Shown here piece by piece: positions 45,837-59,642 of a DNA stretch of 64,000 bases. The notes under the pieces are model-generated. The model saw nothing but the letters and a program-made list of their open reading frames with translations. It was not told the origin of the DNA and made no database searches. Source of the DNA: Pandoraea capi (GTDB lineage: Bacteria; Pseudomonadota; Gammaproteobacteria; Burkholderiales; Burkholderiaceae); contig NZ_CABPRV010000004.1 of NCBI RefSeq assembly GCF_902459735.1, positions 248,001-312,000 on the forward strand. The letters are read 5' to 3'. Numbering within the stretch: the first letter of the stretch is position 1; the number at the start of each line of letters is the position of its first letter. The translations under genes were made by a program, and so were the position numbers.

Positions 45837-46793
45837 TCAGTCCTGCAACTGCGTGATCAGCGGATGCAGCAGACGCGCGCCGACACGTGCGGTGAGGCCG
45901 TCGCGGTCGTACGTCGGGTTGTACTCGGCAATGTCCGCCACGCGCAGCTTGCCCGAACGACGCACCACACCGATCAACGCCTCGACGACTTCGAGCGCCA
46001 CGCCGTGTGCCGCCGGCGCCGACACGCCCGGCGCCTTCTCGCCCGGCAGCACGTCCATGTCGATGGTCAGATAAACGTGGCTCACCTTCGCCAGTTTCTT
46101 CTCCAGACGCTCGCACATTTCCGGCAGACGGTGCGCGAGCATCGTGTCGTCGAGCCAGTAGTCGACGTTCAGCGACGCCGCACGCTCGAACAGCGCTTCG
46201 GTATTGCTGTAGCGGCTCACGCCGAGACAAGCATACTGAAACGGTGCCTGGCGCCCCGCGAGCAACTGCGAGATCTGCCAGAACGGCGTACCCGAGCTGG
46301 CGGTCGGCTGGGCGCGAAGATCGAAGTGTGCGTCGAAGTTGAGAATCAGGATCGGCTCGTCGCGCAGACGGTCGCCGTAATGTTCGGCCACCCCGAGGAA
46401 CGTGCCGTAAGCGATTTCATGTCCGCCGCCCAGCACCACCGGACGCGCCCCCGCGGCCAGCACTTCCGCCACACGATGCCCCAGCGCCGCTTGCGCCGCT
46501 TCGAGACGCTCGTCGGCACAGACGATGTTGCCGCCGTCGAACACCGCCGGCGTGCCCTGCACCGGCAGACTCGCCAGTGCCCGACGCAGCATGTCCGGAC
46601 CTGCCACGGCCCCCTGACGCCCATGGTTGCGACGCACGCCCTCATCACTGCAGAAGCCCAGCACCACGGCGCCACCGGCGACTTCAGATGCATCGCACGC
46701 ATCGTAGTCCCGCAGCACCTGATGCAAACGCAGCGTGTGACCGGTTTCGCCGGTATCCACACGGCCTTGCCAGACTGCTCGATCGATTGTCAT
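45837..46793 (-). CDS. hutG: Formimidoylglutamase (arginase family)
   Basis: Manganese enzyme of 318 residues in the arginase/agmatinase fold. Metal ligands are visible in GGGHEIAYGT, NFDAHFDLR and TIDMDVLPG. The GGGHE-xx-YGTFLG pattern and the length favour N-formimidoyl-glutamate hydrolase of histidine degradation over arginase. It follows an amino-acid ABC transporter on the same strand with a 127-base gap, so it probably acts on the imported substrate. No hutH, hutU or hutI is in the window; another arginase-family amidinohydrolase remains possible. Confidence 0.8.
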   Translation of the reverse strand: MTIDRAVWQGRVDTGETGHTLRLHQVLRDYDACDASEVAGGAVVLGFCSDEGVRRNHGRQGAVAGPDMLRRALASLPVQGTPAVFDGGNIVCADERLEAAQAALGHRVAEVLAAGARPVVLGGGHEIAYGTFLGVAEHYGDRLRDEPILILNFDAHFDLRAQPTASSGTPFWQISQLLAGRQAPFQYACLGVSRYSNTEALFERAASLNVDYWLDDTMLAHRLPEMCERLEKKLAKVSHVYLTIDMDVLPGEKAPGVSAPAAHGVALEVVEALIGVVRRSGKLRVADIAEYNPTYDRDGLTARVGARLLHPLITQLQD

Positions 46794-46920
46794 ACGTTTT
46801 CCTGCCTTGCCTTGCCTGATCGTTGCCGAATTACCGTACTGCTCACATGTCACCCGCGGATCGCACGCTCTCGGCGCGCGCGAATGTCACGTCATCACCT
46901 CTTCACGCCTGCTGTACGAA

Positions 46921-47703
46921 TTACGCCGAACGCGAAATCACGGCTTGCAGGAATTCGCGCGTACGCGCTTCGCGCGGTGCGGTGAAGATCTGCTCCGGCG
47001 AACCGGCTTCGATGATCCGGCCCTGATCCATCACGACCACCACATCGGCGACTTCACGGGCGAAACCCATTTCGTGCGTGACGACGAGCATGGTCATCCC
47101 GTCGTTCGCGAGTGCCTTCATCACTTGCAGCACTTCGCCGACGAGTTCCGGATCGAGTGCAGACGTCGGTTCGTCGAACAGCATGACCTGCGGCTGCATG
47201 GCAAGCGCGCGGGCAATCGCCACACGCTGCTTCTGGCCGCCAGAGAGCGTGCCCGGGTAGACGTCGGCCTTCGCGGCGAGACCGACCTTGGCGAGCAGTT
47301 CGCGGGCCAGCTTGTCGGCATCGGCACTCTTCAGGCCGCGCAGCTTCTTCGGCGCGAGCGTCACGTTATCGAGCACGCTCAGATGCGGAAACAGGTTGAA
47401 CGACTGGAACACCATGCCCACGTCCGTGCGCAACTGGTTCAAGGCGTTCTCGCCCATCATCTTGCCGTGATCGACGAGCTTCTTGCCGACGATCTCGATG
47501 GTGCCCTGCTCGGCCGTCTCCAGCCCGTTGCAGCAACGCAGGAACGTGCTCTTGCCCGAGCCGCTGGGGCCGATGACCACCACGACCTGACGCGCCTGAA
47601 CTTCGAAATCGATGCCCTTCAGGACCTGATGGCTGCCGTAGGCCTTGCCCAGCCCTTCGATCTTCAGGATCGGGGCTTTGCCCGCTTGATTCACTTCGCT
47701 CAT
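46921..47703 (-). CDS. Polar amino-acid ABC transporter ATP-binding protein
   Basis: ATPase of 260 residues of the HisP/GlnQ type. Walker A is [13 protein letters not shown], the signature [15 protein letters not shown], Walker [15 protein letters not shown], and the switch histidine lies in VVTHEMGFA. It powers the permease encoded just upstream, with which it shares an ATGA overlap. Third of a run of IclR regulator, binding protein, permease and this gene. Confidence 0.93.
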
Positions 47704-48368
47704 TGCACGGCACCTCCGGCACGCAGGGACTTCTCGGCGCGCTGCAGCAACAGCGTGGTGACACCGGTCAGAATCAGATAAACAAAAGCAATCGCCAGAT
47801 ACACTTCCAGCGAGCGATACGACACGCTGATGATCTTCTGGCCTTCGTGCATCACGTCGTGAATCGTCAGCAGCGACACGAGGGCAGAGTTCTTGATCAG
47901 CGCGATGAATTCATTGCCCAGCGGCGGAATCATGCGCACGACAGCCTGCGGCAGAATCACCGAGCGCATGGCCAGACCGTACGGCATGCCCAGCGAGCGG
48001 GCGGCTTCCATCTGGCCGCGCTCGATCGACTGGATTGCGCCGCGCACGATTTCCGAGACGTAAGCACCGCTGTAGATGCCCAGCCCCAGCACACCGCACA
48101 CGAACGCGGGCAGCAGAATGTTGAACTGCGGCAGACCAAAGAACAGGATGAAGAGCTGCACCAGCAGCGGCGTGCCACGAATGAACGTGACGTATGCGGT
48201 ACAGATGCCGTAGCGAATGCGGTTAGCGGGGTTGAGGCGGCCCATGCCGACCAGCAAGCCCAGCACACAGCCCAGTGCCAGGGCACAGGCAGTGACTTCG
48301 ACGGTCACCAGCGCGCCACGCGCCAGATCCGTCCAGTTTGCCCACACCGGCGAGAAATCGAGTTCCAT
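47700..48368 (-). CDS. Polar amino-acid ABC transporter permease
   Basis: Inner-membrane permease of 222 residues with about five spans. The HEQRALPA-type N-terminal domain and the ATPase-contacting loop [23 protein letters not shown] are typical of the HisMQ/GlnP group. Only one permease is encoded, so it probably works as a homodimer as GlnP does. Its stop overlaps the ATPase start by four bases. Confidence 0.92.
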
Positions 48369-48533
48369 GCGTACTCCGTCAGTTGCTCTACTGCGCTAAT
48401 GCTTTATTGCTTGGGCGGGCGACGTCGCCCTGCGAAGGGTGACGGCCAGCCCGCCCGGGTAGTGCTCAGGGTGACGACGTGGGCGAGGTCGCCCCGGATC
48501 GGTGCGACGGTTCGCACGTCGTCGTACCCTGAC

Positions 48534-48577
48534 GTCAGACCTTAGTCAGACCTTAGTCAGACCTGAGTCAGACCTTA
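48534..48577. repeat. Four 11-base tandem repeats at a gene end
   Basis: Four head-to-tail copies of GTCAGACCTTA (one with TGA in place of TTA at its end). The last copy supplies the stop codon of the minus-strand binding-protein gene. Because 11 is not a multiple of three, the other copies lie outside the coding frame. Confidence 0.9.
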
Positions 48578-49312
48578 CTTCGACGAACCGAAGTACTTGG
48601 TGACGAGTGCGGCGTAAGTGCCGTCGGCACGCACCTTTTCCAGCGCCTTGTTCATCTCTTCGGTCAGCGCCTTGTCGTCCTTACGCAGGGCGAAGCCGTA
48701 GCGCTCGACGGTCAGCGTCTTGTCGAGCACCTTCACGACCGGATTGGCCTTCGCGTACAGCAGCGCAGCCGGCTTGCCGGTCACGGCCGCATCGGCACGG
48801 CCGATCTTCACGAGTTCGAACATCTGGTCGTTCTTCTCGACTTCCACGCGCGAGACCTTCGGGTAGTTTTCCGTCAGGAACTGCACCGACTTCGTACCGA
48901 CCTGCACCGAGACCTTCTTGCCGTTCAGATCGGCCGGTTCCTTGATGCTGGTGTTGTCAGCCTTGACCATGATGGCCAGACCGCCGGTGTAGTACGGATG
49001 CGTGAAGTTCACGGCCTTCAGGCGTTCGTCGGTGATGTAGATCGCCGAAGCGGCCACGTCGACACGCTTGGACAGCACGGCCGGGATCAGGCCCTTGAAA
49101 TCGATATCCGTCCACTCGATCTTCTTGCCCATGGCCTTGCCGAGCGCTTCGATCATTTCCACGTCGAAGCCGGTACGCTTACCGTTTTCCACGTATTCGA
49201 ACGGCGGGAAGGTCGCGTCGGTGGCAACACGCAGCACGTCGTCGGCAGCGAAAACCTTGGTCGAGCAGGTGACGGCCAGCGCCATCGTGAACAGGATGTG
49301 ACGCAATTTCAT
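48575..49312 (-). CDS. Polar amino-acid ABC transporter binding protein (SBP family 3)
   Basis: Periplasmic protein of 245 residues with a signal peptide (MKLRHILFTMALAVTCSTKVFA). The mature part is a family 3 binding protein: LRVATDATFPPFEYVENGKRTGFDVEMIEALGK, DVAASAIYITDERLKAVNFTHPYY, and LNGKKVSVQVGTKS. It should deliver histidine, glutamine or a similar amino acid to the permease downstream. The hutG neighbour makes histidine or formimidoylglutamate a reasonable guess. It starts 39 bases after the IclR gene. Confidence 0.9.
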   Translation of the reverse strand: MKLRHILFTMALAVTCSTKVFAADDVLRVATDATFPPFEYVENGKRTGFDVEMIEALGKAMGKKIEWTDIDFKGLIPAVLSKRVDVAASAIYITDERLKAVNFTHPYYTGGLAIMVKADNTSIKEPADLNGKKVSVQVGTKSVQFLTENYPKVSRVEVEKNDQMFELVKIGRADAAVTGKPAALLYAKANPVVKVLDKTLTVERYGFALRKDDKALTEEMNKALEKVRADGTYAALVTKYFGSSK

Positions 49313-49351
49313 CTGGTACTCCTTCGTGTAGTCTCGGTTCGGAAAAACCGG

Positions 49352-50098
49352 TTAAAAGTACTGCAATCGATTCGAAATACGCTCAGCTGCCGCCACCGTC
49401 AGGCGGATCAGCTCCTCGTGGCGCTGCGCCACACGCACGGCCGGCGCCATCAGGGTGATGGTGCCTTCCAGACGTTCCTTCGCGGCAAACACCGGGGCCG
49501 ACACGCCCCACACGCCGAAGTCCACTTCGCTCTCCGACACGGCATACCGCTGCTTGCGAATCTCTTCGATCTGCGCAACGAGACGCTCCTGCGCAACCGG
49601 CTGCCCCGCCAGTTGGCGGCCGATCAGGTTATCGCGGGTGGTCTGGGGAAGGAAGGAGAGCAAGGCCTTGGCCGACGCGCCGTGCACCAGCGGGTGCGCA
49701 CGTCCCTTGGCGAACGAGCAACGCAGCGACTGCTCGCTCTCGTGCATGTCGAGGCAGACGACCTGACCGTTCGCGGCGACGAGCAGACCGACGGTCTCCC
49801 CGGTGCGCTGCACGAGGGCGTCGATCTCTTCACGCGCCTGGGTGACTAGATGCGAGTTGTGGTCGAAACCCCACGCCAATTGCACGCCAACCGGCCCCGG
49901 TTCATAGAGCGCCTCATGGGCATGCTCTTGCACCAGGCCCCACTTCTTGAGCGGCACGAGGTGGCGGTAAACCGTAGAGAGCGGCAGGCTCGTTTGCGCG
50001 GCGATCTCGCGTGCCGCGATCGGGCGTCCATGACGCGCCACAGTCACAAGGACTTGCAGTACGCGCTCGGAGACCGAATGCGCTTCGGTGGTGTCCAT
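49352..50098 (-). CDS. IclR family transcriptional regulator
   Basis: Regulator of 248 residues with the N-terminal winged helix (VLQVLVTVARHGRPIAAREIAAQTSLPLSTVYRHLVPLKKWGLV) and the C-terminal effector domain (GETVGLLVAANGQVVCLDMHESEQSLRCSF, SEVDFGVWGVSAPVF). It is first in the same-strand run with the amino-acid transporter and hutG, so it probably controls them. ATG 50098 was chosen over an in-frame TTG three codons upstream. Confidence 0.87.
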   Translation of the reverse strand: MDTTEAHSVSERVLQVLVTVARHGRPIAAREIAAQTSLPLSTVYRHLVPLKKWGLVQEHAHEALYEPGPVGVQLAWGFDHNSHLVTQAREEIDALVQRTGETVGLLVAANGQVVCLDMHESEQSLRCSFAKGRAHPLVHGASAKALLSFLPQTTRDNLIGRQLAGQPVAQERLVAQIEEIRKQRYAVSESEVDFGVWGVSAPVFAAKERLEGTITLMAPAVRVAQRHEELIRLTVAAAERISNRLQYF

Positions 50099-50272
50099 CG
50101 TCTTCAAAAACTAAAGAAAGCAAAAAAACCGGCAGGCGGTGCCGCCGATGACGACATGGGCGCTATCTTGCGATGCAATTCCCAAAGTAAAAAATACGAT
50201 TCTCAGCGGATGGTAACAAATTGGGAGATTACGCATAGGGACTTTCCCTTATGCACCGCGTAAGCCGAGCAT

Positions 50273-50364: not shown

Positions 50365-51894
50365 TTACGAATCCGGGCCGTCGGATAGCCACTCGATGAG
50401 AATCGGTTTTTGCACTTTCCCAAGGGCGCTCTTGGGCAGGATGTCGAAAACGACCACGCGCCGCGGCAGTTTGAAGCGTGCAATGCGCGTGCCGAGGAAG
50501 TCGAGCACCGACGCCTGCGTCGCGGGCGAGTCCGCCGTCGGCACGACCACGGCAACGGGCACTTCACCCCATCGCTCGTCCGGCACCCCCACGACCGACG
50601 CTTCCATCACGCCCGGGCAGTCGACCAGCGCGTTCTCGATCTCCGCCGGGTAAATGTTCTCGCCGCCCGAGATGATCATGTCCTTGCTGCGGCCAACGAC
50701 CTCGTAACAGCCGTCCTCGCGCAGTCGTGCGAGGTCGCCCGAGTGAAACCAGCCGTCTGCGAACGACACGTGACCGGGCGCGCGCCAGTACTCGCGCATG
50801 ACGTTCGGCGCACGCACCAGAATCTCGCCGACGTGGCCGGGCGGCACGTCCTGCCCTGCCGCATCGACCAGACGCACTTCCACGCCCGGACACGCACGTC
50901 CCACCGCGCCGGGATGCGCCTTCGCTTCGCCGAAGCGCAGCGCGATCGACACCGGCCCGGTTTCCGTCGCGCCATACACCTGCCCCAGCGGAATGCCTCG
51001 CGCGTGAAAGGCGTCAATGGCAGACATCGGTACGACACTCGATCCGGCCATCACGCCACGCAGCGACGAGACGTCTGTCGTCGCCCACATCGGGTGCATC
51101 TGTACGGCGCGCATCGTGGCGGGCACCATCAGCGACAGCGTCGGGCGATGTCGGGCGACGTCTGCGAGCCACGCCGCCGGATCGAAGCGAGGGTGCAGCG
51201 TGACGCTGGCGCCCCGCAACAGCGCCGGGAGCGTCTGAATGCACAGACCGCCGACGTGGAACATCGGCAGCGTCGAGAGCACATGATCGTCGGCGCGCAT
51301 GTCGTGCGACCACCAGCTCGCCTCGGCATTGGCCAGCAATCCAGCCTGCGTATGCAGCGCGCCTTTGGGCTCCCCCGTCGTGCCGGAGGTATACGCGAGC
51401 AGCACAGGCGCGTCGGGCGAGACGTCGGGGTAATGGACCGGTTTGACGGACGGTACTGCGATCAGGCCTTCGATCGGCGCGATGGCGGGCGGCGGCAAAT
51501 CGGTGATGACGTCCTGTTCCAGCGTGTCGCGGATCTGGCGCGCGGCGTCACGATGCGCCGCGTCGAACCACAGCACGCGCACGCCCGCATGGCGCACGAT
51601 CGCGGCCAGTTCGGGCACGGCAAGACGGAAATTGAGCGGCAGAAAGATGGCGCCGGCCCGCGCGCAGGCGAACAGCAGCGCCAGTTGCAGTTCGTCGTTC
51701 AGACCGAGGCACGCGACGCGATCGCCGGGGGCGATGCGCCATGTCTCACGCAGATGACCGCCTACGCGCTCGATGCGCCGCCATAGCGCGGCGTAGTCCG
51801 TCGTCCGGGCTTGCTCACCCACGCCGCACCGCAGCGCCAGCCGCTCGGGCGTGGCGCGCGCATGACGGGCAAGCGCTTCTACAAAAGGCGTCAA
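50365..51894 (-). CDS. AMP-forming acyl/aryl-CoA ligase
   Basis: Ligase of 509 residues that should activate a carboxylic acid as its CoA thioester. Motifs are LAYTSGTTGEPKGALHTQ, GQVYGATETGPVSI, GWFHSGDLARLREDGCYEVVGRSKDMIISGGENIYPAEIE and the catalytic lysine in LPKSALGKVQK. I chose the TTG at 51894 because GGAG precedes it and no ATG gives a sensible N-terminus; the longer in-frame start at 52005 adds a charged stretch without similarity. It is last of four minus-strand genes with the NicX-like enzyme. The acid activated is unknown. Confidence 0.85.
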   Translation of the reverse strand: MTPFVEALARHARATPERLALRCGVGEQARTTDYAALWRRIERVGGHLRETWRIAPGDRVACLGLNDELQLALLFACARAGAIFLPLNFRLAVPELAAIVRHAGVRVLWFDAAHRDAARQIRDTLEQDVITDLPPPAIAPIEGLIAVPSVKPVHYPDVSPDAPVLLAYTSGTTGEPKGALHTQAGLLANAEASWWSHDMRADDHVLSTLPMFHVGGLCIQTLPALLRGASVTLHPRFDPAAWLADVARHRPTLSLMVPATMRAVQMHPMWATTDVSSLRGVMAGSSVVPMSAIDAFHARGIPLGQVYGATETGPVSIALRFGEAKAHPGAVGRACPGVEVRLVDAAGQDVPPGHVGEILVRAPNVMREYWRAPGHVSFADGWFHSGDLARLREDGCYEVVGRSKDMIISGGENIYPAEIENALVDCPGVMEASVVGVPDERWGEVPVAVVVPTADSPATQASVLDFLGTRIARFKLPRRVVVFDILPKSALGKVQKPILIEWLSDGPDS

Positions 51895-52062
51895 CTTGTT
51901 CTCCGTGACAAGAGAGACGGCAAGGCGCTTGTCGCCTCGCCGTTTCGCTGAACCACTGACCTGCCGATTTTCTTGCGATCTGTCGTCGACTTGCCGACTT
52001 ACCAACTTGCCAACGCATAACCTCGTCGAGCACTCACCGATGACCCGACGCGTTCGCCGCGA

Positions 52063-53307
52063 TTACTCGTCGCGCTCGCCCGGCTCATAGAGCGCTTCGC
52101 GCCCGATACGGTCGAGGCACAGCTCCGCCGTCCACGGCAGCATCAGCGCACCGCAGCGCGAGTCGCGATACATGCGTTCGAGCGGCAGCGTCTTGAGCAT
52201 CGACTGTCCGCCACACGTGCGAATCGCGAGGCGGCACAACTCATTCGCATTCTCCATGATCGTGTACTGCGCCGCATAGGCGCGCAGACGCGCTTGCTTG
52301 CCCGGATCGGCACGACCGTCCTGCAACGCGCGCAGGAACAACGCGCGCGTCTGCTCCAGCATGATGTGCATTTGCGCGACGGCGATCTGCTTGGTCGGAT
52401 ACATACGGCGCTTGACCGGCGCGCCCATGCCTTCGGCTTCGCCGCGCAGATAGCGCACGGTGAAGTCGTAGGCGGCCTGCGCGATCCCCATGTACGTCGG
52501 CGCGAGCGTCATGAACATGTGAGGCCAGCGGCTCGCTGCCTGATAGTAGACACCGCGCGGCATCAGTTGCAGTTCGTCGGCAACGAACACGTCCTTGAAC
52601 AGCAGCGTACGCGAGACGGTGCCACGCATGCCGAGCGGGTCCCAGTCGCCGGTGACGGTCACGCCCGGGGCGTCGCCCGGCACGGCGATGTAGAACGTGT
52701 CTTTCATTGACAGTTCGGGCTTCTCTTCCGTGCAGAGCACGCCGTAGTAGTTCGCGGCACCGGAGAGCGACGCGAAGATCTTGCGGCCATTGATGAGCCA
52801 GCCGCCGTCGACCTTCGTCGCGGTGGTGCCAAACGGCGCCTTGCCTGCGGCGGCCGCGCTGCCCTCGGAGAACGGTTGCGCGTAAATCGCACCGTCCTGG
52901 ATCACGCGCTCGAAGTGATGCTTGCGATATCCCGCGTGCTCGGCGCGTTGCTCGGGGGTCATGTCGAGATCGTCGGCCAGAATGCCCGTCCACATCATCG
53001 AGCACGTATGCATGTTGAACGTGAGCGCCGTCGCGCCGCAATGGCGCCCCAGCTCGGCGGACACCATCATGTACGTGGCGAAGTCGGCGCCCAGACCGCC
53101 GTCCGCTTCGGGAATGCATAGCTTGAGCAGGCCGGCCGCGCGCATGTCGTCGTAGTTCTCGAACGGGAACGACGCTTCGCGATCCCAGCGAGCGGCGCGC
53201 GGCGCGAGGGACTCGCGTCCTACCTGTTCGGCCAGCGCCAGCAGGCGCCGCTGCTTGTCCGTGAGCGGGTAGTGCTCGCCGACGATCGAAGGGGGCTGAT
53301 AGGCCAC
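52063..53307 (-). CDS. Acyl-CoA-dehydrogenase-fold flavoprotein lacking the usual catalytic Glu
   Basis: Protein of 414 residues with the ACAD fold: N-terminal helices, the middle beta domain (IYAQPFSEGSAAAAGKAPFG, then KVDGGWLINGRKIFASLSGAANYYGV and DPLGMRGTVSRTLLFKDVFV), and C-terminal helices. Near the end, where medium-chain enzymes read YEGT, this protein has LMLPWT (388-393), so no base sits at that place. Flavin monooxygenases with this fold also lack that Glu. With the flavin reductase encoded divergently, a two-component monooxygenase is plausible; a true dehydrogenase with its base elsewhere remains possible. It starts at GTG 53307 after an AGGAG site. Confidence 0.75.
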   Translation of the reverse strand: MAYQPPSIVGEHYPLTDKQRRLLALAEQVGRESLAPRAARWDREASFPFENYDDMRAAGLLKLCIPEADGGLGADFATYMMVSAELGRHCGATALTFNMHTCSMMWTGILADDLDMTPEQRAEHAGYRKHHFERVIQDGAIYAQPFSEGSAAAAGKAPFGTTATKVDGGWLINGRKIFASLSGAANYYGVLCTEEKPELSMKDTFYIAVPGDAPGVTVTGDWDPLGMRGTVSRTLLFKDVFVADELQLMPRGVYYQAASRWPHMFMTLAPTYMGIAQAAYDFTVRYLRGEAEGMGAPVKRRMYPTKQIAVAQMHIMLEQTRALFLRALQDGRADPGKQARLRAYAAQYTIMENANELCRLAIRTCGGQSMLKTLPLERMYRDSRCGALMLPWTAELCLDRIGREALYEPGERDE

Positions 53308-53356
53308 GGTAGTCTCCTGATAGGTTCTTGGGGTGCCTGATGTGGGTAGGCAGTGG

Positions 53357-54211
53357 CTAGAGCGCCGAGAGGAACGCTTGCACCTCGGCGTCGAATGCCG
53401 CCGGATGCGTGAGATTCATGAGATGACCCGCGCCGGGCAGACAGACGTAACGTGCGTCGGGAATGGCCTCGGCCATGCGTGCCATCACCTTCGGCGGTGC
53501 GTTGTTGTCGTGCTCACCGGCAATGAGCAGCACCGGCACGGACAGACGCGTCAGCGCGGCACGCTGCTCGAAGCCGACGAGCGCCTGCAATGCCGCACGG
53601 TAGGCGTCGGGCGTGAGTGCGCCCATGGCATCGACGGCCAGCGCCTGCGCCTGTTCACGGGTGACGTCGTCGGGCTCGCCCAGCATGCCCGGCACGATCG
53701 CCTGCGCCATCTCGCGCAGGGTCTTGCCCGCATCGAGCGGCGCGGTGCGTTGGCGCACGAATTCGCGCTGAAAATCGCCGTCCGGCTTGCCGAACGCGGG
53801 CGATGTGCCACACAGCACGAGGCCCGCAATATCGTGGGTGAAGGGCTCGCCGCGTGACATCAATTCCTGCACGACCATGCCGCCCATGCTGTGACCGACG
53901 AGCACGAACCGCGAAGCGCCGAGCGACGTCAGACGGTCGAGCAACGCGCGCAGGCTGTCGGCGAGCGCCGCCATCGTCGGCGCGGCGGGCATGGCGCTTT
54001 CGCCGTACCCCGGCATGTCCCAGGCCACCACGCGATAGCCCGCCGCGACGAACGTCGCGAACTGAGCGGGCCAGACATCACGATTGCCGCCGATGCCGTG
54101 CAGCAGCACGAGCGTGAGCGGACCCTCGCCCGCAACACGATAGGTTGGACAGGCCGGACCGTCAGGCTGACCGGACTGCGTGGATGATGTTGGCGGAACG
54201 GGCGTCGTCAT
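53357..54211 (-). CDS. Alpha/beta hydrolase
   Basis: Hydrolase of 284 residues. The oxyanion-hole motif is LLHGIGGNRDVW, the nucleophile S108 lies in VGHSMGG, and the acid and base are D235 (GEHDNNAP) and H263 (GAGHLMNL). The sequence looks closest to enol-lactone or ring-fission-product hydrolases. In the nicotinate pathway an alpha/beta hydrolase (NicD) removes formate from the product of NicX, and a similar job would fit here. Its ATG overlaps the NicX-like gene stop as ATGA, which fixes the start and couples the two. Confidence 0.8.
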   Translation of the reverse strand: MTTPVPPTSSTQSGQPDGPACPTYRVAGEGPLTLVLLHGIGGNRDVWPAQFATFVAAGYRVVAWDMPGYGESAMPAAPTMAALADSLRALLDRLTSLGASRFVLVGHSMGGMVVQELMSRGEPFTHDIAGLVLCGTSPAFGKPDGDFQREFVRQRTAPLDAGKTLREMAQAIVPGMLGEPDDVTREQAQALAVDAMGALTPDAYRAALQALVGFEQRAALTRLSVPVLLIAGEHDNNAPPKVMARMAEAIPDARYVCLPGAGHLMNLTHPAAFDAEVQAFLSAL

Positions 54212-55254
54212 GCGAACTCGCCTTGCAGTTCGCCGTCGCGCACGACGACGTCGCCATCGAGCGAGATCGTGCATTTGCGCAGCGGCAGATCGAAGTGGCC
54301 CAGCGTGTGGCGACCGGCGACTTCGTTGGCCCCCGTCGAATAGAGGAAGTTGCCTGCGAAGGCGCGCTGCTCCGTACCGTTGCAGTCGCGCTTGTCGTAG
54401 CAGGCGAGCGCATCCCAGCGCGCGCGCTGGTTCAGACCGAAGCCGACGTGCGAGACGGCGTACGCCTCGCGATCGCCCCAGGCGGCAAAGTAGTCGCGCA
54501 TGAGATCGACGTCGACGCCCTCGCCGTCGATGGCGACGACATAATCGTCCTCGACGGTGAGCGCAATGCGATCGCGCAAATACTGTTTGAAGGTGAGGTT
54601 GATGTCGCCCGGCGCGAGCACGAGCTGGCCGCTCACGCTGTGCGCGGCGGGGAAGGCCAGCGCCAGTCCGCCGGGCCAGTGCGCGACCTGCCCGGGCTTG
54701 GCACACCAGCCCCACACGCCGCCTACGCGCGCGTCGCGAAGTCCGATGCGCAGATCGGTACCGGCGGCAGACGTCACATGCATCTGTGCTGCACTGCGCA
54801 AGCGCTTGATCGCGGCACGCACCTTCGGCTCCAGCGCCGGGTCGGTCGCGCAGCGCTCCAGAATCTCGGGATGTTCGTTGGAGACCATCAGCACGCGCGC
54901 GCCGCCGCCCAGGATGTCGGGCAATTCGGGGGCATGCAGCAAGCCTTCGACTGTGCAGTCGACAACGAGGGTCGCAGCCTTGAGGGCCGCCACGACGGGG
55001 GCGAGTTGCCCCAGGGCGTCGCTCGCGCCGGTCGAGCGCACGGGCACCGGTGCAGACACGCGCGGGCTGGGCACGACCAGCCGGAATGGCCTTGCGCCAA
55101 GCGACTCGGCGGCCAGTTGCGCTAATTCCACGTTGACAGGCCGGGATTGGGTTTCAGCTACAATCGCCACCACGTCACCGGGTCGTATGTCGCAGCGCCG
55201 CAAAGTCTCGGCAAATACGTCGATCCACTTATGCTCGATTCGCTCGATCAGCAT
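54208..55254 (-). CDS. NicX-like enzyme (2,5-dihydroxypyridine 5,6-dioxygenase family)
   Basis: Protein of 348 residues, the same size as NicX of Pseudomonas putida (about 350). The family pattern is clear: HVTSAAGTDLRIGLRDARVGG, GDINLTFKQYLRDRIALTVED, SHVGFGLNQRARWDAL and GHFDLPLRKCTISLDG. The expected iron ligands are kept as H269, H320 and D322, close in number to those I recall for NicX (H265, H318, D320). NicX cleaves a dihydroxylated pyridine ring to N-formylmaleamate. Here the substrate may differ, since no nicC, nicE or nicF lies nearby. First gene of its operon, with AGGAGACG before the ATG. Confidence 0.78.
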   Translation of the reverse strand: MLIERIEHKWIDVFAETLRRCDIRPGDVVAIVAETQSRPVNVELAQLAAESLGARPFRLVVPSPRVSAPVPVRSTGASDALGQLAPVVAALKAATLVVDCTVEGLLHAPELPDILGGGARVLMVSNEHPEILERCATDPALEPKVRAAIKRLRSAAQMHVTSAAGTDLRIGLRDARVGGVWGWCAKPGQVAHWPGGLALAFPAAHSVSGQLVLAPGDINLTFKQYLRDRIALTVEDDYVVAIDGEGVDVDLMRDYFAAWGDREAYAVSHVGFGLNQRARWDALACYDKRDCNGTEQRAFAGNFLYSTGANEVAGRHTLGHFDLPLRKCTISLDGDVVVRDGELQGEFA

Positions 55255-55345
55255 ATCGTCTCCTGAGCGCCTGACCTTCTCGCCCCGAAAGGGAGCCATG
55301 TTTGGCCATCACGCGTCTTGTCGATCTGTTGTTCGTGCCATAGTA

Positions 55346-55359
55346 TATGAATATTCATA
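55346..55359. promoter_or_regulatory. Palindrome TATGAATATTCATA, candidate MarR operator
   Basis: A perfect 14-base palindrome in the 136-base gap between the divergent NicX-like and flavin-reductase genes. MarR proteins bind such sites in divergent promoters next to their own gene. Its 12-base core has the same ATGAA-NN-TTCAT form as the palindrome at 42732. Confidence 0.6.
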
Positions 55360-55390
55360 CAAATCAACCCGATCAAATTTACCGGACGCA

Positions 55391-55930
55391 ATGGACGGGA
55401 GTGCAGGGAAAGTGAACGTCAAACACGCCACAGCGCCGGACTTCGACAGCGCGGCTTTTCGCAGTGCGCTCGGTCAATTCGCCACCGGTGTCACCGTCAT
55501 CACCACGCGGGCCGACGATGGCTCGCTCATCGGCATTACCGCCAGTTCGTTCAACTCGGTGTCGCTCACGCCGCCACTCATCTTGTGGAGTCTGGCCACG
55601 CGAGCCGGCAGCATGCCTGTCTTCCGTGAAAACTCGCACTATGCGGTGAATGTGCTGGCGGCCGATCAACTCGACCTGTGCAAGCGCTTCGCCACGATGA
55701 AGGGCGACCGGTTCGCGGGCGTGCCGTACACGCTGTCGGCGTCGGGTACGCCGGTGCTCGACGGCGCGCTCGCCTGGTTCGAATGCCACAACCGCAGCCG
55801 GTACGACGAGGGCGACCATGTCATCTTCGTGGGCGAAGTCGAGCGTTGCGGTGTGCATGAGGAAGTGGCGGATCGCATGCCGCTGATCTTCCACGCTGGC
55901 GGCTTCCACAAGCCGCAGTCGCTGGGCTGA
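55391..55930 (+). CDS. Flavin reductase family protein (HpaC/RutF-like)
   Basis: FMN-binding protein of 179 residues with the flavin-reductase-like domain: FRSALGQFATGVTVITTRADDGSLIGITASSFNSVSLTPPLILWSLA and a C-terminal DHVIFVGEVERCGVHEE. These proteins reduce free flavin with NAD(P)H for a partner monooxygenase. No classic HpaB-type oxygenase is nearby; the likely partner is the ACAD-fold protein at 52063. ATG 55391 is used, but a GTG at 55412 with AGGGA before it is an equally good start. Confidence 0.85.
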   Translation: MDGSAGKVNVKHATAPDFDSAAFRSALGQFATGVTVITTRADDGSLIGITASSFNSVSLTPPLILWSLATRAGSMPVFRENSHYAVNVLAADQLDLCKRFATMKGDRFAGVPYTLSASGTPVLDGALAWFECHNRSRYDEGDHVIFVGEVERCGVHEEVADRMPLIFHAGGFHKPQSLG

Positions 55931-55938
55931 GGCGCGCG

Positions 55939-56385
55939 ATGTCCGTGGCGGGCGCGCCGTTCGTCGACGACTATCTGGCGTATCTGCTCGCCCGCGCGAG
56001 CGCGCTCGTCTCGGACGAATTCCATCGTGAAGTCGCCGCCGCCGGTCTGGGCGTGCTGGAGTGGCGCGTGCTCGCTACGCTCTCCGACGCCCGGGCGCGT
56101 ACCGTCAATCAACTCGCGGACATCGTGCTTGCCAAGCAGCCCACGGTCACCAAGGTCATCGACCGGCTCGAGGCGGCGGGGTATGTCGTGCGGGGTGCGA
56201 GTGCCACCGACAAGCGCCAGTCGCTCGTGTCGCTGACCGAGGCGGGCGTCGTTCACGTCACGCCGCTGCTCGATAGTGCACGCCGTCATGAAGCGCATGT
56301 GCTTGTGCGGTTTGGCGAGACGCAATCGGCGCAGTTGAAGGACTCGCTGCGCGAACTCATCCAGCAGATGACACAGGGCCGGTAG
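55939..56385 (+). CDS. MarR family transcriptional regulator
   Basis: Regulator of 148 residues with the winged helix LGVLEWRVLATLSDARARTVNQLADIVLAKQPTVTKVIDRLEAAGYVVRGASATDKRQSLVSLT. It lies eight bases after the flavin-reductase gene and is divergent from the NicX-like operon. NicR of the nicotinate pathway is also a MarR protein. It probably represses both directions from the palindrome at 55346 and is released by the aromatic substrate or a CoA ester. Confidence 0.87.
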   Translation: MSVAGAPFVDDYLAYLLARASALVSDEFHREVAAAGLGVLEWRVLATLSDARARTVNQLADIVLAKQPTVTKVIDRLEAAGYVVRGASATDKRQSLVSLTEAGVVHVTPLLDSARRHEAHVLVRFGETQSAQLKDSLRELIQQMTQGR

Positions 56386-56633: not shown

Positions 56634-57320
56634 ATGAACGCTTCGAACGTTTCGAACGCCTCGGACAAAACCGTCGCACACGCCCAGACTCGCGAGCGTC
56701 GCGTGTGGGATATCAGCGCGCCGCTCTCGGCCAGCACGCCGGTGTGGCCGGGCGACACCCCGTTCACCGAGGAGGCCGTCTGGCAGATCGGCCCGGGCTG
56801 CCCGGTCAATGTGGGGCGCATCACGTTGTCGCCGCACACCGGCGCCCATGCCGACGCCCCACGTCACTACGACGATGCCGGTGCGTTCATCGGGGAAGTC
56901 GATCTTCAGACGTATCTGGGGCCGTGCCGGGTGATTCACTGCCTCGGCGCCGCGCCGGTCGTCACGCCCGAGATGGTCGAAGCGCACCTGAAGGATGTGC
57001 CGTCGCGCGTGCTGCTGCGCACCTATGCGCACGCCCCCGTCGCGCAGTGGGATAGCGCCTTCTGCGCGGTTGCGCCCGAGACCATCGATCTGCTTGCCTC
57101 GCACGGCGTGAAGCTCGTGGGCATCGATACGCCGTCGCTCGATCCGCAGGAGAGCAAGACGATGGACGCGCACCACCGCATTCGCGCGCATCGCATGGCG
57201 ATTCTCGAAGGGCTGGTGCTCGACGCCATCGAGCCTGCCGATTACGAACTCATTGCCCTGCCGCTCAAGTTCATGCGACTCGACGCCAGCCCGGTTCGCG
57301 CCGTGCTGCGTTCGCTCTGA
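56634..57320 (+). CDS. kynB: Kynurenine formamidase
   Basis: Metal-dependent cyclase-family hydrolase of 228 residues that removes formate from N-formylkynurenine. The metal site [12 protein letters not shown] is present, with [21 protein letters not shown] at the N-terminus and [21 protein letters not shown] later. ATG 56634 gives a leader of about 25 residues longer than usual (Asn/Ser/Thr-rich); a later start is possible. It begins the kynB-kynU-kynA operon. Confidence 0.92.
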
Positions 57321-57385
57321 GCGTCATCGCACACCGTTTTTTGCTTCGATTGCCTTTACAACATCCACACCTACCAACGCAAACC

Positions 57386-58639
57386 ATGACGTCTTCTCGC
57401 AACGATTGTCTGGCCCTCGACTCGGCCGATCCGCTCGCTCCGCTACGCGCCCAATTCGATCTGCCGCCGGGGGTCATCTATCTCGATGGCAACTCGCTGG
57501 GGGCGCGTCCGATCGCATCGGCCAAGCGTGCCCAGGAAGTGATTACCGCGGAATGGGGCGTGGGTCTCATTCGCAGCTGGAACGAAGCCGACTGGTTCGC
57601 GCTGCCGCGCACGCTGGGTGATGCGCTGGCGCCGATCGTCGGCGCGGGCAAGGGGGAAGTCGTGGTGACGGACACCACGTCGAGCAACCTGTTCAAGGTG
57701 ATGGCCGCGGCGCTCGACGCACAGCGCGCACGCGCGCCGCAGCGCAAGGTCGTCGTCTCCGAGCGCAGCAACTTCCCGACCGATCTGTACATCGTGCAGG
57801 GCCTGACACGTCTGCTCGACGACGGCTACTCGCTGCGTCTGATCGACTCGCCGGACGAACTGCAAAGCGCGCTGGGCGACGACGTCGCCGTGGCCCTGCT
57901 CACGCACGTGAACTACCGCACCGGCGCGATGTACGACATGGCGGCACGTACGGCGCAGATTCATGCGTCCGGCGCGTTGGCGGTGTGGGATCTGTGTCAC
58001 TCGGCAGGTGCCGTGCCGGTCGACCTGAATGGCGCGAACGCGGACTACGCCGTGGGTTGCACGTACAAGTACCTGAACGGCGGCCCGGGCGCGCCTGCGT
58101 TCGTATGGGTCAACAAGAAGCATCAGGACACGTTCTGGCAGCCGCTGTCGGGCTGGTGGGGTCACCGCACGCCGTTCGCGATGACGCCGGAATACACGCC
58201 GGACGACGGCATCGGCCGTTACCTTTGCGGCACGCAGCCGATCGTCTCGCTCTCGCTGGTCCAATGTGGTCTGGACATCTTTGCGCAGACGTCGATGCAG
58301 GCGTTGCGCAGCAAGTCGCTCGCACTCACCGACCTGTTCATCAAGCTGGTGGAGGAGCGTTGCGCCGAATTCCCGTTGACGCTGGTCACGCCGCGCGACC
58401 ATGCGGCGCGTGGGTCGCAGGTGAGCTTCGAGCATCCGGAAGGGTTTGCCGTGATTCAGGCGTTGATTGCGCGGGGCGTCATCGGCGACTACCGCGAGCC
58501 GCGCATCATGCGTTTCGGCATGACGCCGCTGTACACGAGCTTTGCCGACGTCTGGGATTCGGTCGAAATTCTGCGCGACGTGCTGAGCACGGGTTCCTGG
58601 GACAAGCCCGAGTTTCATCGTCGTGGCACGGTGACCTGA
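57386..58639 (+). CDS. kynU: Kynureninase
   Basis: PLP enzyme of 417 residues that cleaves kynurenine to anthranilate and alanine. Features: [13 protein letters not shown] near the start, [31 protein letters not shown], and the PLP lysine in [18 protein letters not shown]. Length is normal. It starts 65 bases after kynB and ends 16 bases before kynA. No anthranilate dioxygenase genes are in the window. Confidence 0.94.
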
Positions 58640-58655
58640 GCGAGGAGCAGTCAGC

Positions 58656-59642
58656 ATGAGCAAGACTTCCCCCACGTCTCACGTACCGACCGGCGAAGAC
58701 GGTTCGCCGTCGTCGGCTCAGGCATCGTCGGGTGGTTGCCCGTTCGGGCATCGGAGCGACGAGAGCTACGAGACGGCCGGTGCGCCGAAGACCGAGGCAC
58801 CGGCATCGACGTCGGCGAACGCCAACGCGTGGCACGACGCCCAGCTCGATTTCTCGAAGAGCATGAGCTACGGCGACTACCTGTCGCTCGATCCGATTCT
58901 GAATGCGCAGCATCCGCGCTCGACCGATCACAACGAGATGCTGTTCATCATTCAGCATCAGACGAGCGAGTTGTGGATGAAGCTCGCGCTGTATGAGTTG
59001 CAGGCAGCGCGCACAGCGGTGCATAACGACGAACTGCCGCCGGCGTTCAAGATGCTCGCGCGCGTGTCGCGCATTCTCGAGCAACTGGTGCAGGCGTGGA
59101 GCGTGCTCGCGACGATGACGCCGTCGGAGTATTCGTCGATGCGTCCGTCGCTGGGCAGCTCATCGGGCTTCCAGTCGTATCAGTACCGCATTCTGGAGTT
59201 CATGCTGGGCAACAAGAATGTGGCGATGCTCCAGCCGCATTCGCATCGTCCCGATCTGTTCCAGCAGGTCGAGGCGGCCCTCAAGGCGCCGTCGTTCTAC
59301 GATGAAGTGGTGCGCTTGCTCGCGCGTCGCGGATTTGCGATTGCGCCGGAGCGGCTGGATCGCGACTGGACGAAGCCGACGCCGCACGACAAGACCGTCG
59401 AAGCGGCTTGGCTGGAGGTGTATCGCAACCCCTCGCAGCATTGGGAACTCTACGAGATGGCCGAAGAACTGGTCGATCTCGAAGACGCGTTCCGTCAATG
59501 GCGCTTCCGTCACGTGACAACCGTCGAGCGCATCATCGGCTTCAAGCAAGGGACCGGCGGCACCAACGGCGCGCCCTATCTGCGCAAGATGCTCGATGTC
59601 GTGCTGTTCCCTGAGTTGTGGCACGTGCGGACGTTGTTGTGA
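58656..59642 (+). CDS. kynA: Tryptophan 2,3-dioxygenase
   Basis: Haem enzyme of 328 residues that opens the indole ring of tryptophan. The family core runs from [40 protein letters not shown] to [11 protein letters not shown], with [18 protein letters not shown] in the middle. An N-terminal extension of about 65 residues is Ser/Ala-rich and contains C28-P29-F30-G-H32, which resembles a haem-regulatory motif. A GAGGAG site precedes ATG 58656. Last gene of the operon; a hairpin follows. Confidence 0.94.

Follow-up and report, generated by a model that had tools for sequence, protein, structure and literature searches.

A conserved MarR-linked gene cluster around a NicX-like protein in Pandoraea capi, with a probable role in anthranilate/2-aminobenzoyl-CoA catabolism

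Within a 64,000-nucleotide stretch of the Pandoraea capi genome (contig NZ_CABPRV010000004.1, positions 248,001 to 312,000; genome size 5.85 Mb), hereafter the window and numbered from its first letter, positions 50365 to 56385 hold a divergent cluster of six genes that we call the divergon. Four minus-strand genes, encoding a CoA ligase, a flavoprotein of the acyl-CoA dehydrogenase (ACAD) fold, an alpha/beta-fold hydrolase and a protein resembling the dioxygenase NicX, are opposed on the plus strand by genes for a flavin reductase and a MarR-family regulator. All six were found at the place and on the strands given in an earlier note on this DNA, and five of them, the NicX-like gene excepted, have Pfam families that fit. 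Genome comparisons support the divergon as a conserved unit of catabolic appearance, and its gene company makes a role in the anthranilate/2-aminobenzoyl-CoA branch of metabolism probable. Our preferred explanation is more specific and is held a little less firmly: the divergon would be a MarR-controlled ring-cleavage branch of anthranilate/2-aminobenzoyl-CoA catabolism.

A scan of species contigs returned 473 candidate stretches, 444 of which encode relatives at 1e-3, and the best 80 were kept as named loci (19 of them shorter than 15 kb). Counting a gene as present at an identity of at least 40% over more than 35% of the query, the loci with six, five, four, three, two and one of the divergon genes number 56, 15, 5, 2, 1 and 1, respectively, which answers in the affirmative the earlier note's question whether the set is conserved as a unit. 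Carriers include Pandoraea, Cupriavidus, Polaromonas and Limnohabitans, and the core set is kept in differing surroundings from Pandoraea to Limnohabitans and more distant genomes. A match is present in 31 of 32 same-genus genomes, the host counted; the miss is a 1.2-Mb genome, and in one other (G030) the match is just partial. When five genomes (including Cupriavidus sp. IDO, L098) were searched with the flavoprotein at 1e-30, the cluster copy was the sole match in each.

The NicX-like gene (54208-55254, minus strand) lies in an open reading frame that extends to 55299; its start is probably the ATG at 55254, because an AGGAG stands upstream and most homologues begin at that methionine. Its product, a putative Fe(II) dioxygenase, has no Pfam or NCBIfam match at 1e-3 and matches Pseudomonas putida NicX (7cn3) at 2.9e-56. 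An AlphaFold2 model (mean pLDDT 77.8, with low-confidence stretches that include residues 296-317 and 319-329) superimposes on 7cn3/7cup with TM scores of 0.81-0.85 at 34-35% fold-alignment identity, compared with 0.46-0.59 for M29 peptidases; normalised to the query, the values are 0.81-0.82 and 0.51-0.59, respectively. The modelled protein has the NicX fold and not that of M29 peptidases; by fold it does not side with the peptidases, a grouping that the earlier note had named beforehand as speaking against its proposal.

The account of NicX in PMC7910607, as far as available, names four iron ligands (His265, Ser302, His318, Asp320) and a substrate clamp formed by His189 with Glu177, the latter hydrogen-bonded to N1 and O1 of the substrate. 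We aligned 109 rows of at least 65% identity (many of them near-duplicates, window included) with four plasmid rows (L112-L115). Equivalents of the four ligands and of His105 and His189 are kept in 109/109 and 4/4 rows, and Glu177 is replaced in all 113, by Val in 96, Gly in 13 and Thr in 4. A two-residue insertion relative to NicX directly precedes His105; at the positions of Glu308 and Cys76 the alignments are gapped or disagree. A second NicX homologue of the host (L002) retains Glu177 and has Phe at 105. In a maximum-likelihood tree, 28 NicX-like rows are separated from 6 NicX rows by a 100/100 branch, with a warning from the tool on long branches. NicX of P. putida KT2440 (7cn3/7cup) thus shares with the NicX-like protein its fold, the four ligands and the two histidines, and differs in Glu177, in lacking the insertion, in clade and in its nic-gene neighbours. 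In the kind of tree that the earlier note had proposed, the protein thus stands in a clade of its own. Since Glu177 is replaced in all 113 rows of that clade, pyridine chemistry is doubtful and the protein is unlikely to be a 2,5-dihydroxypyridine dioxygenase; the idea of a pyridine substrate, drawn from the likeness to nicX, keeps the fold and iron site in its favour, and has the lost glutamate and the separate clade against it.

A close companion of this clade is a protein matching NF006101, which we read as a 2-aminobenzoyl-CoA monooxygenase because of its gene neighbours: genes for RidA, CoA ligase, ACAD, enoyl-CoA hydratase and a short-chain dehydrogenase surround it in several loci and in the host (L124), a set that we take to be that of the 2-aminobenzoyl-CoA (abm) pathway. 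In a phylum sample of 398 genomes, 20 gave a NicX-like match at 1e-70. One (G255) was set aside, with 43% identity to the NicX-like protein and a place on the NicX side of the tree, leaving 19 carriers including the host. At 1e-250, NF006101 is matched in 19/19 carriers and 52/379 others; over the curated cut-off, in 18/19 (G106 falling just short) and 46/379. For the figures at 1e-250 Fisher's test gives 6.5e-16, with carriers that are related (7 families) and so not independent. Among 30 chosen genomes and records, all 25 clade-bearing whole genomes gave a full-length match, that of G106 falling slightly short of the cut-off, while G255 gave none; of four plasmid records two have a full-length match, one a partial match and one none. 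Among 61 relatives, all 32 with the clade have NF006101, as do two more without it. Anthranilate dioxygenase served as a control: 9/398 genomes exceed its cut-off and 26 match at 1e-120, with no clade carrier among them, numbers too small to tell free anthranilate from its CoA ester.

Flanking the divergon and outside it lie plus-strand genes read from their open reading frames as kynB-kynU-kynA (56634-59642), for the conversion of tryptophan to anthranilate. At least two of the three accompany the cluster in the stretches fetched for 27 of the 80 named loci (18 Pandoraea, 9 Cupriavidus-type), in line with the tryptophan link drawn by the earlier note. The question it raised, whether the cluster tracks with kyn genes, is answered with a partial yes, with kynA in 22 of the 25 whole genomes with the clade, but NF006101, in 25/25, is the tighter partner. 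Genes of abm type are nearby in 20 of the 80 loci, and also in L125, in three L149-type and in two L157-type loci. The abm cluster lies near the divergon in several lineages and co-occurs with it in all 19 sampled carriers; it differs in its NF006101-type gene, absent from the divergon, and in the host the abm cluster is complete and apart, on another contig (C19, L124). One genome (G348) has hydrolase, flavoprotein and ligase genes inside an abm stretch and its NicX-like gene elsewhere. In several abm clusters there is a separate MarR-type gene (the 'd38' family, e.g. L161:8501-8875).

The flavoprotein (52063-53307, minus strand) has Pfam Acyl-CoA_dh domains, with Pro aligned to the catalytic Glu of the dehydrogenases. 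This position lies in a MLPxT motif present in 100/100 orthologues (x being Trp in 86, Tyr in 10, Phe in 3 and another residue in 1), where gcdH and an abm ACAD hold YEG, the Glu of which is presumably the catalytic residue of acyl-CoA dehydrogenases. Across the gap between the two arms of the divergon stands the GTG-initiated gene of an HpaC/HsaB-type flavin reductase (55412-55930, plus strand; Flavin_Reduct 1.6e-42, NCBIfam matches below cut-offs). Because the dehydrogenase Glu is lost and a flavin reductase gene is close by, the flavoprotein is likely the oxygenase partner in a two-component flavin monooxygenase; with the loss in 100/100 orthologues, and orthologues of flavoprotein and reductase in 76/80 and 66/80 named loci, respectively, the two-component oxygenase that the earlier note had raised as possible becomes likely. 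The top two Foldseek hits are 5gj7 ('putative Acyl-CoA dehydrogenase') and 5z8t ('Flavin-containing monooxygenase'); the literature searched yielded no papers on either.

The AMP-forming acyl-CoA ligase (50365-51894, minus strand; Pfam AMP-binding 2e-80) lies in a reading frame opening at 52005, with a likely start, judged by eye, at the TTG at 51894, where a GGAG stands upstream. Its closest solved relatives are feruloyl-CoA synthetase (8wev, 1.8e-100), FadD5, FadD13 and malonyl-CoA synthetase. The host's abm cluster has its own homologue of 2-aminobenzoate-CoA ligase, to which the divergon ligase is 31% identical; as that separate abm ligase is 65% identical to the Limnohabitans type, the divergon enzyme is unlikely to be the anthranilate-CoA ligase.

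Loci with other gene sets bear on the substrate. In eight (L112-L115, on Hyphomicrobiales plasmids, and L155-L158, in genomes outside the host's class) a glutamine-synthetase-like (GS-like) gene stands beside the NicX-like gene and no orthologous CoA ligase is found there; two same-order genomes (L151, L153) likewise show no orthologous ligase within the 19 kb fetched. The CoA activation proposed by the earlier note is therefore matched by the ligase in the window, and does not extend to these variants. That lineages differ in having either a CoA ligase or a GS-like ligase would suit a substrate bearing an acid as well as an amine group. A genome rated complete (G106) has NicX-like and hydrolase genes and no flavoprotein match at 1e-20, and in the genomes of L092 and L107 flavoprotein matches reach just 28-30% identity. 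This alternation of ligases, the loss of Glu177 and the G106 case together favour an acid- and amine-bearing substrate.

Further features of these variant loci were observed. The metagenome loci L107 and L092 retain the NicX-like gene but lack the customary orthologues of flavoprotein and ligase; in their place L107 encodes an ACAD of genuine appearance and a zinc alcohol dehydrogenase. Near the GS-like variant, L115 (10263-13883) and L155 (6586-7536) encode double cupins resembling gentisate/5-aminosalicylate dioxygenases, 90% identical to each other; L156 carries a member of the same cluster, and the L115 gene is accompanied by FAH-family and nitrilase-like genes. In L157, TctA/TctB genes and one for a class-I glutamine amidotransferase are close by. 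In L149 (family f66) a second flavoprotein of the ACAD_2 type stands beside the flavin reductase, and an IlvD-type dehydratase and an octopine-dehydrogenase-like gene are also present (noted genes at L149:16486-17736 and L149:12058-13752).

The hydrolase gene (53357-54211, minus strand; Pfam Abhydrolase) has a start that overlaps the stop of the NicX-like gene (ATGA), and its product keeps the Ser/Asp/His triad in 134/134 matches and resembles the PcaD/esterase type below cut-off. The earlier note had seen in it an echo of nicD. Its identity to two NicDs is 23-25%, while these are 63% identical to each other, and its oxyanion motif is different; the likeness is one of fold, and identification as NicD is ruled out. 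When Azospirillum NicC, NicE, NicD, NicX and NicF were searched against the 64-kb window at 1e-5, NicX alone was matched (41%), in agreement with the absence of nicC, nicE and nicF remarked on earlier. On another contig of the host (C8, L002, ~71930-72967) NicE, NicD, NicX and NicF homologues stand side by side with 62-75% identity to the annotated Azospirillum nic cluster, so that by homology the host carries nicotinate-type nic genes in addition to the divergon. Nic operons (L165, L166, L167) share with the divergon a NicX homologue beside an alpha/beta hydrolase and, in L167, a MarR gene; they differ in that the divergon has flavoprotein, flavin reductase and ligase in place of NicC, NicE, NicD and NicF.

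The MarR-family regulator gene (55939-56385, plus strand; MarR_2 1.7e-13, HpaR-like match below cut-off) closes the forward arm. Between the arms lies a 14-bp perfect palindrome, TATGAATATTCATA (55346-55359), which overlaps a possible -10 box and is a candidate MarR operator. A perfect ATGAAWWTTCAT palindrome is found in 40 of 55 divergent regions, window included; two of these 40 hold a further, unrelated palindrome, 15 of the 55 have none of at least 12 bp, although an imperfect copy is seen in L066. Across the host genome the 12-mer core has a single exact occurrence and four further ones that differ by one mismatch. Because 2000 shuffles of the region yielded a palindrome of at least 12 bp in 3.75% of cases, and the whole window contains 26, it is the conservation of this palindrome, not its length, that argues for a function. 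On the other side of the divergon, adjoining the ligase gene, the window holds hutG, an IclR regulator gene and a set of genes for an amino-acid ABC transporter (45837-50107); of the 80 named loci, 17 have homologues of the IclR and transporter genes and 16 of hutG, as seen in Pandoraea loci.

From conservation, the NicX fold and its iron site, the lost residues, the co-occurrence and the palindrome we infer a scheme whose substrate and reaction steps are each conditional. The flavoprotein, supplied with reduced flavin by the reductase, would hydroxylate an anthranilate-type aromatic acid; with Fe(II) and O2, the NicX-like enzyme would open the ring next to the hydroxyl; the hydrolase may act on the ring-opened product, for example by deformylation; a ligase (the CoA ligase here, the GS-like enzyme in the eight other loci) would activate substrate or product; and the products would feed the 2-aminobenzoyl-CoA/beta-oxidation genes. 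The likeliest substrate is a hydroxyanthranilate or an indole-type acid. We tentatively put forward the hydroxyanthranilate type, such as 5-hydroxyanthranilate or its CoA ester, as the leading candidate, one that falls well short of an assignment; a passage of PMC3534580 that cites Langkau 1990 reports that 2-aminobenzoyl-CoA monooxygenase makes 5-hydroxyanthraniloyl-CoA when NADH is limiting.

This explanation must be tempered by several observations. A substrate that is already hydroxylated would leave the flavin pair with no obvious job, yet flavoprotein and reductase are kept in 76 and 66 of the 80 loci, and in the fold search with the flavoprotein, oxygenases and true dehydrogenases tie (VIA Z). 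Acid-transporter genes (TctC, DctP, NMT1-type) beside several loci point to an imported substrate and not to a side product. By the presence rule, 33 of the 80 loci have neither kyn nor abm genes nearby; the family name of NF006101 is salicylyl-CoA 5-hydroxylase; and the co-occurrence of clade and NF006101 could stem from shared ecology. A search of the host abm cluster (L124, up to 3 mismatches) gave no copy of the palindrome, so that MarR control looks local.

The same genes could instead form an upper pathway that converts an N-heteroaromatic compound (of the indole, indole-3-carboxylate, indole-3-acetate, 4-quinolone or kynurenate type) to anthranilate or 2-aminobenzoyl-CoA, an explanation we regard as unlikely, though the most serious of the competitors. 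The flavin pair would hydroxylate the heteroring, the NicX-like enzyme would cleave N-CH=C(OH), and the hydrolase would remove the formyl or acyl group; NicX chemistry on 3-hydroxyindole should yield N-formylanthranilate. It draws on the overlap of hydrolase and dioxygenase genes, on the transporter genes, and on the strict companionship of 2-aminobenzoyl-CoA genes and proximity of kyn genes, which meet at anthranilate; an old report, as cited in part of PMC11630574, has indole-3-acetate converted through 2-formamidobenzoylacetate to anthranilate. It is weakened by the loss of Glu177, which in NicX holds the ring N-H, by the GS-like ligase, which would require an amine that those substrates lack, by a hydrolase unlike NicD, and by the complete genome G106 without the flavoprotein; the clade is also in none of the 9 genomes (a small number) over the anthranilate dioxygenase cut-off. 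Indoxyl as the favoured substrate is likewise set back to this rival, since the variants with a GS-like gene, the absence of Glu177 and a hydrolase that is not NicD all weigh against it.

Pyridine carboxylates are improbable substrates. Cleavage of a dihydroxypyridine or its CoA ester would accord with NicX as the closest solved relative and with the retained iron ligands and His105 and His189 equivalents, but Glu177 is replaced in 113/113 rows of a separate clade, the window has no match to NicC, NicE, NicD or NicF while nic genes lie elsewhere in the genome, and the strict link is to 2-aminobenzoyl-CoA genes. Least credible, and very improbable in our judgement, is that there is no functional unit at all and that genes of separate function, including an ACAD-fold protein that is a true beta-oxidation dehydrogenase, stand together by shared ancestry. 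Many further neighbours are indeed kept in Pandoraea, and gene sets vary in L092, L107 and L151-L154; against this, the core set persists in differing surroundings from Pandoraea to more distant genomes, the palindrome is shared and the dehydrogenase Glu is lost.

Among described systems, iacC/iacD homologues are presumably Rieske-type, and as to iac/iad membership, Pfam finds no Rieske domain in the six divergon proteins; nor is there a short-chain dehydrogenase domain, which by domain content sets the divergon apart from the iac/iad auxin and iif indole clusters. Auxin operons are defined by adjacent iacC/iacD homologues and resemble the divergon in MarR control, according to the available portion of PMC9613470, and the iif cluster, as partly presented in PMC6221969, resembles it in its two-component flavin oxygenase. 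No description of the six-gene cluster was recognised among the papers listed from the literature searched, by titles and abstract beginnings with subscription papers largely outside, and no paper there joined aminobenzoyl-CoA with dihydroxypyridine.

According to the available text of PMC7910607, NicX defines its dioxygenase subtype, and no substrate besides 2,5-dihydroxypyridine is reported. The divergon may extend this picture, and we consider it possible, with less confidence than in the metabolic role itself, that the NicX fold serves a second enzymatic branch that opens an anthranilate-derived (aminobenzoate- or indole-type) ring, its core of hydroxylase, ring-opening enzyme and hydrolase paired with two unrelated activating enzymes, a CoA ligase in some lineages and a gamma-glutamyl ligase in others. 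If so, one more aerobic route would connect with the 2-aminobenzoyl-CoA pathway. The widespread sister clade, which retains the iron site and differs at a key substrate residue, is a place to seek new ring-cleavage chemistry; its constant association with 2-aminobenzoyl-CoA genes leaves a short list of testable substrates, and would help to name a gene family annotated in some records as peptidase M29.

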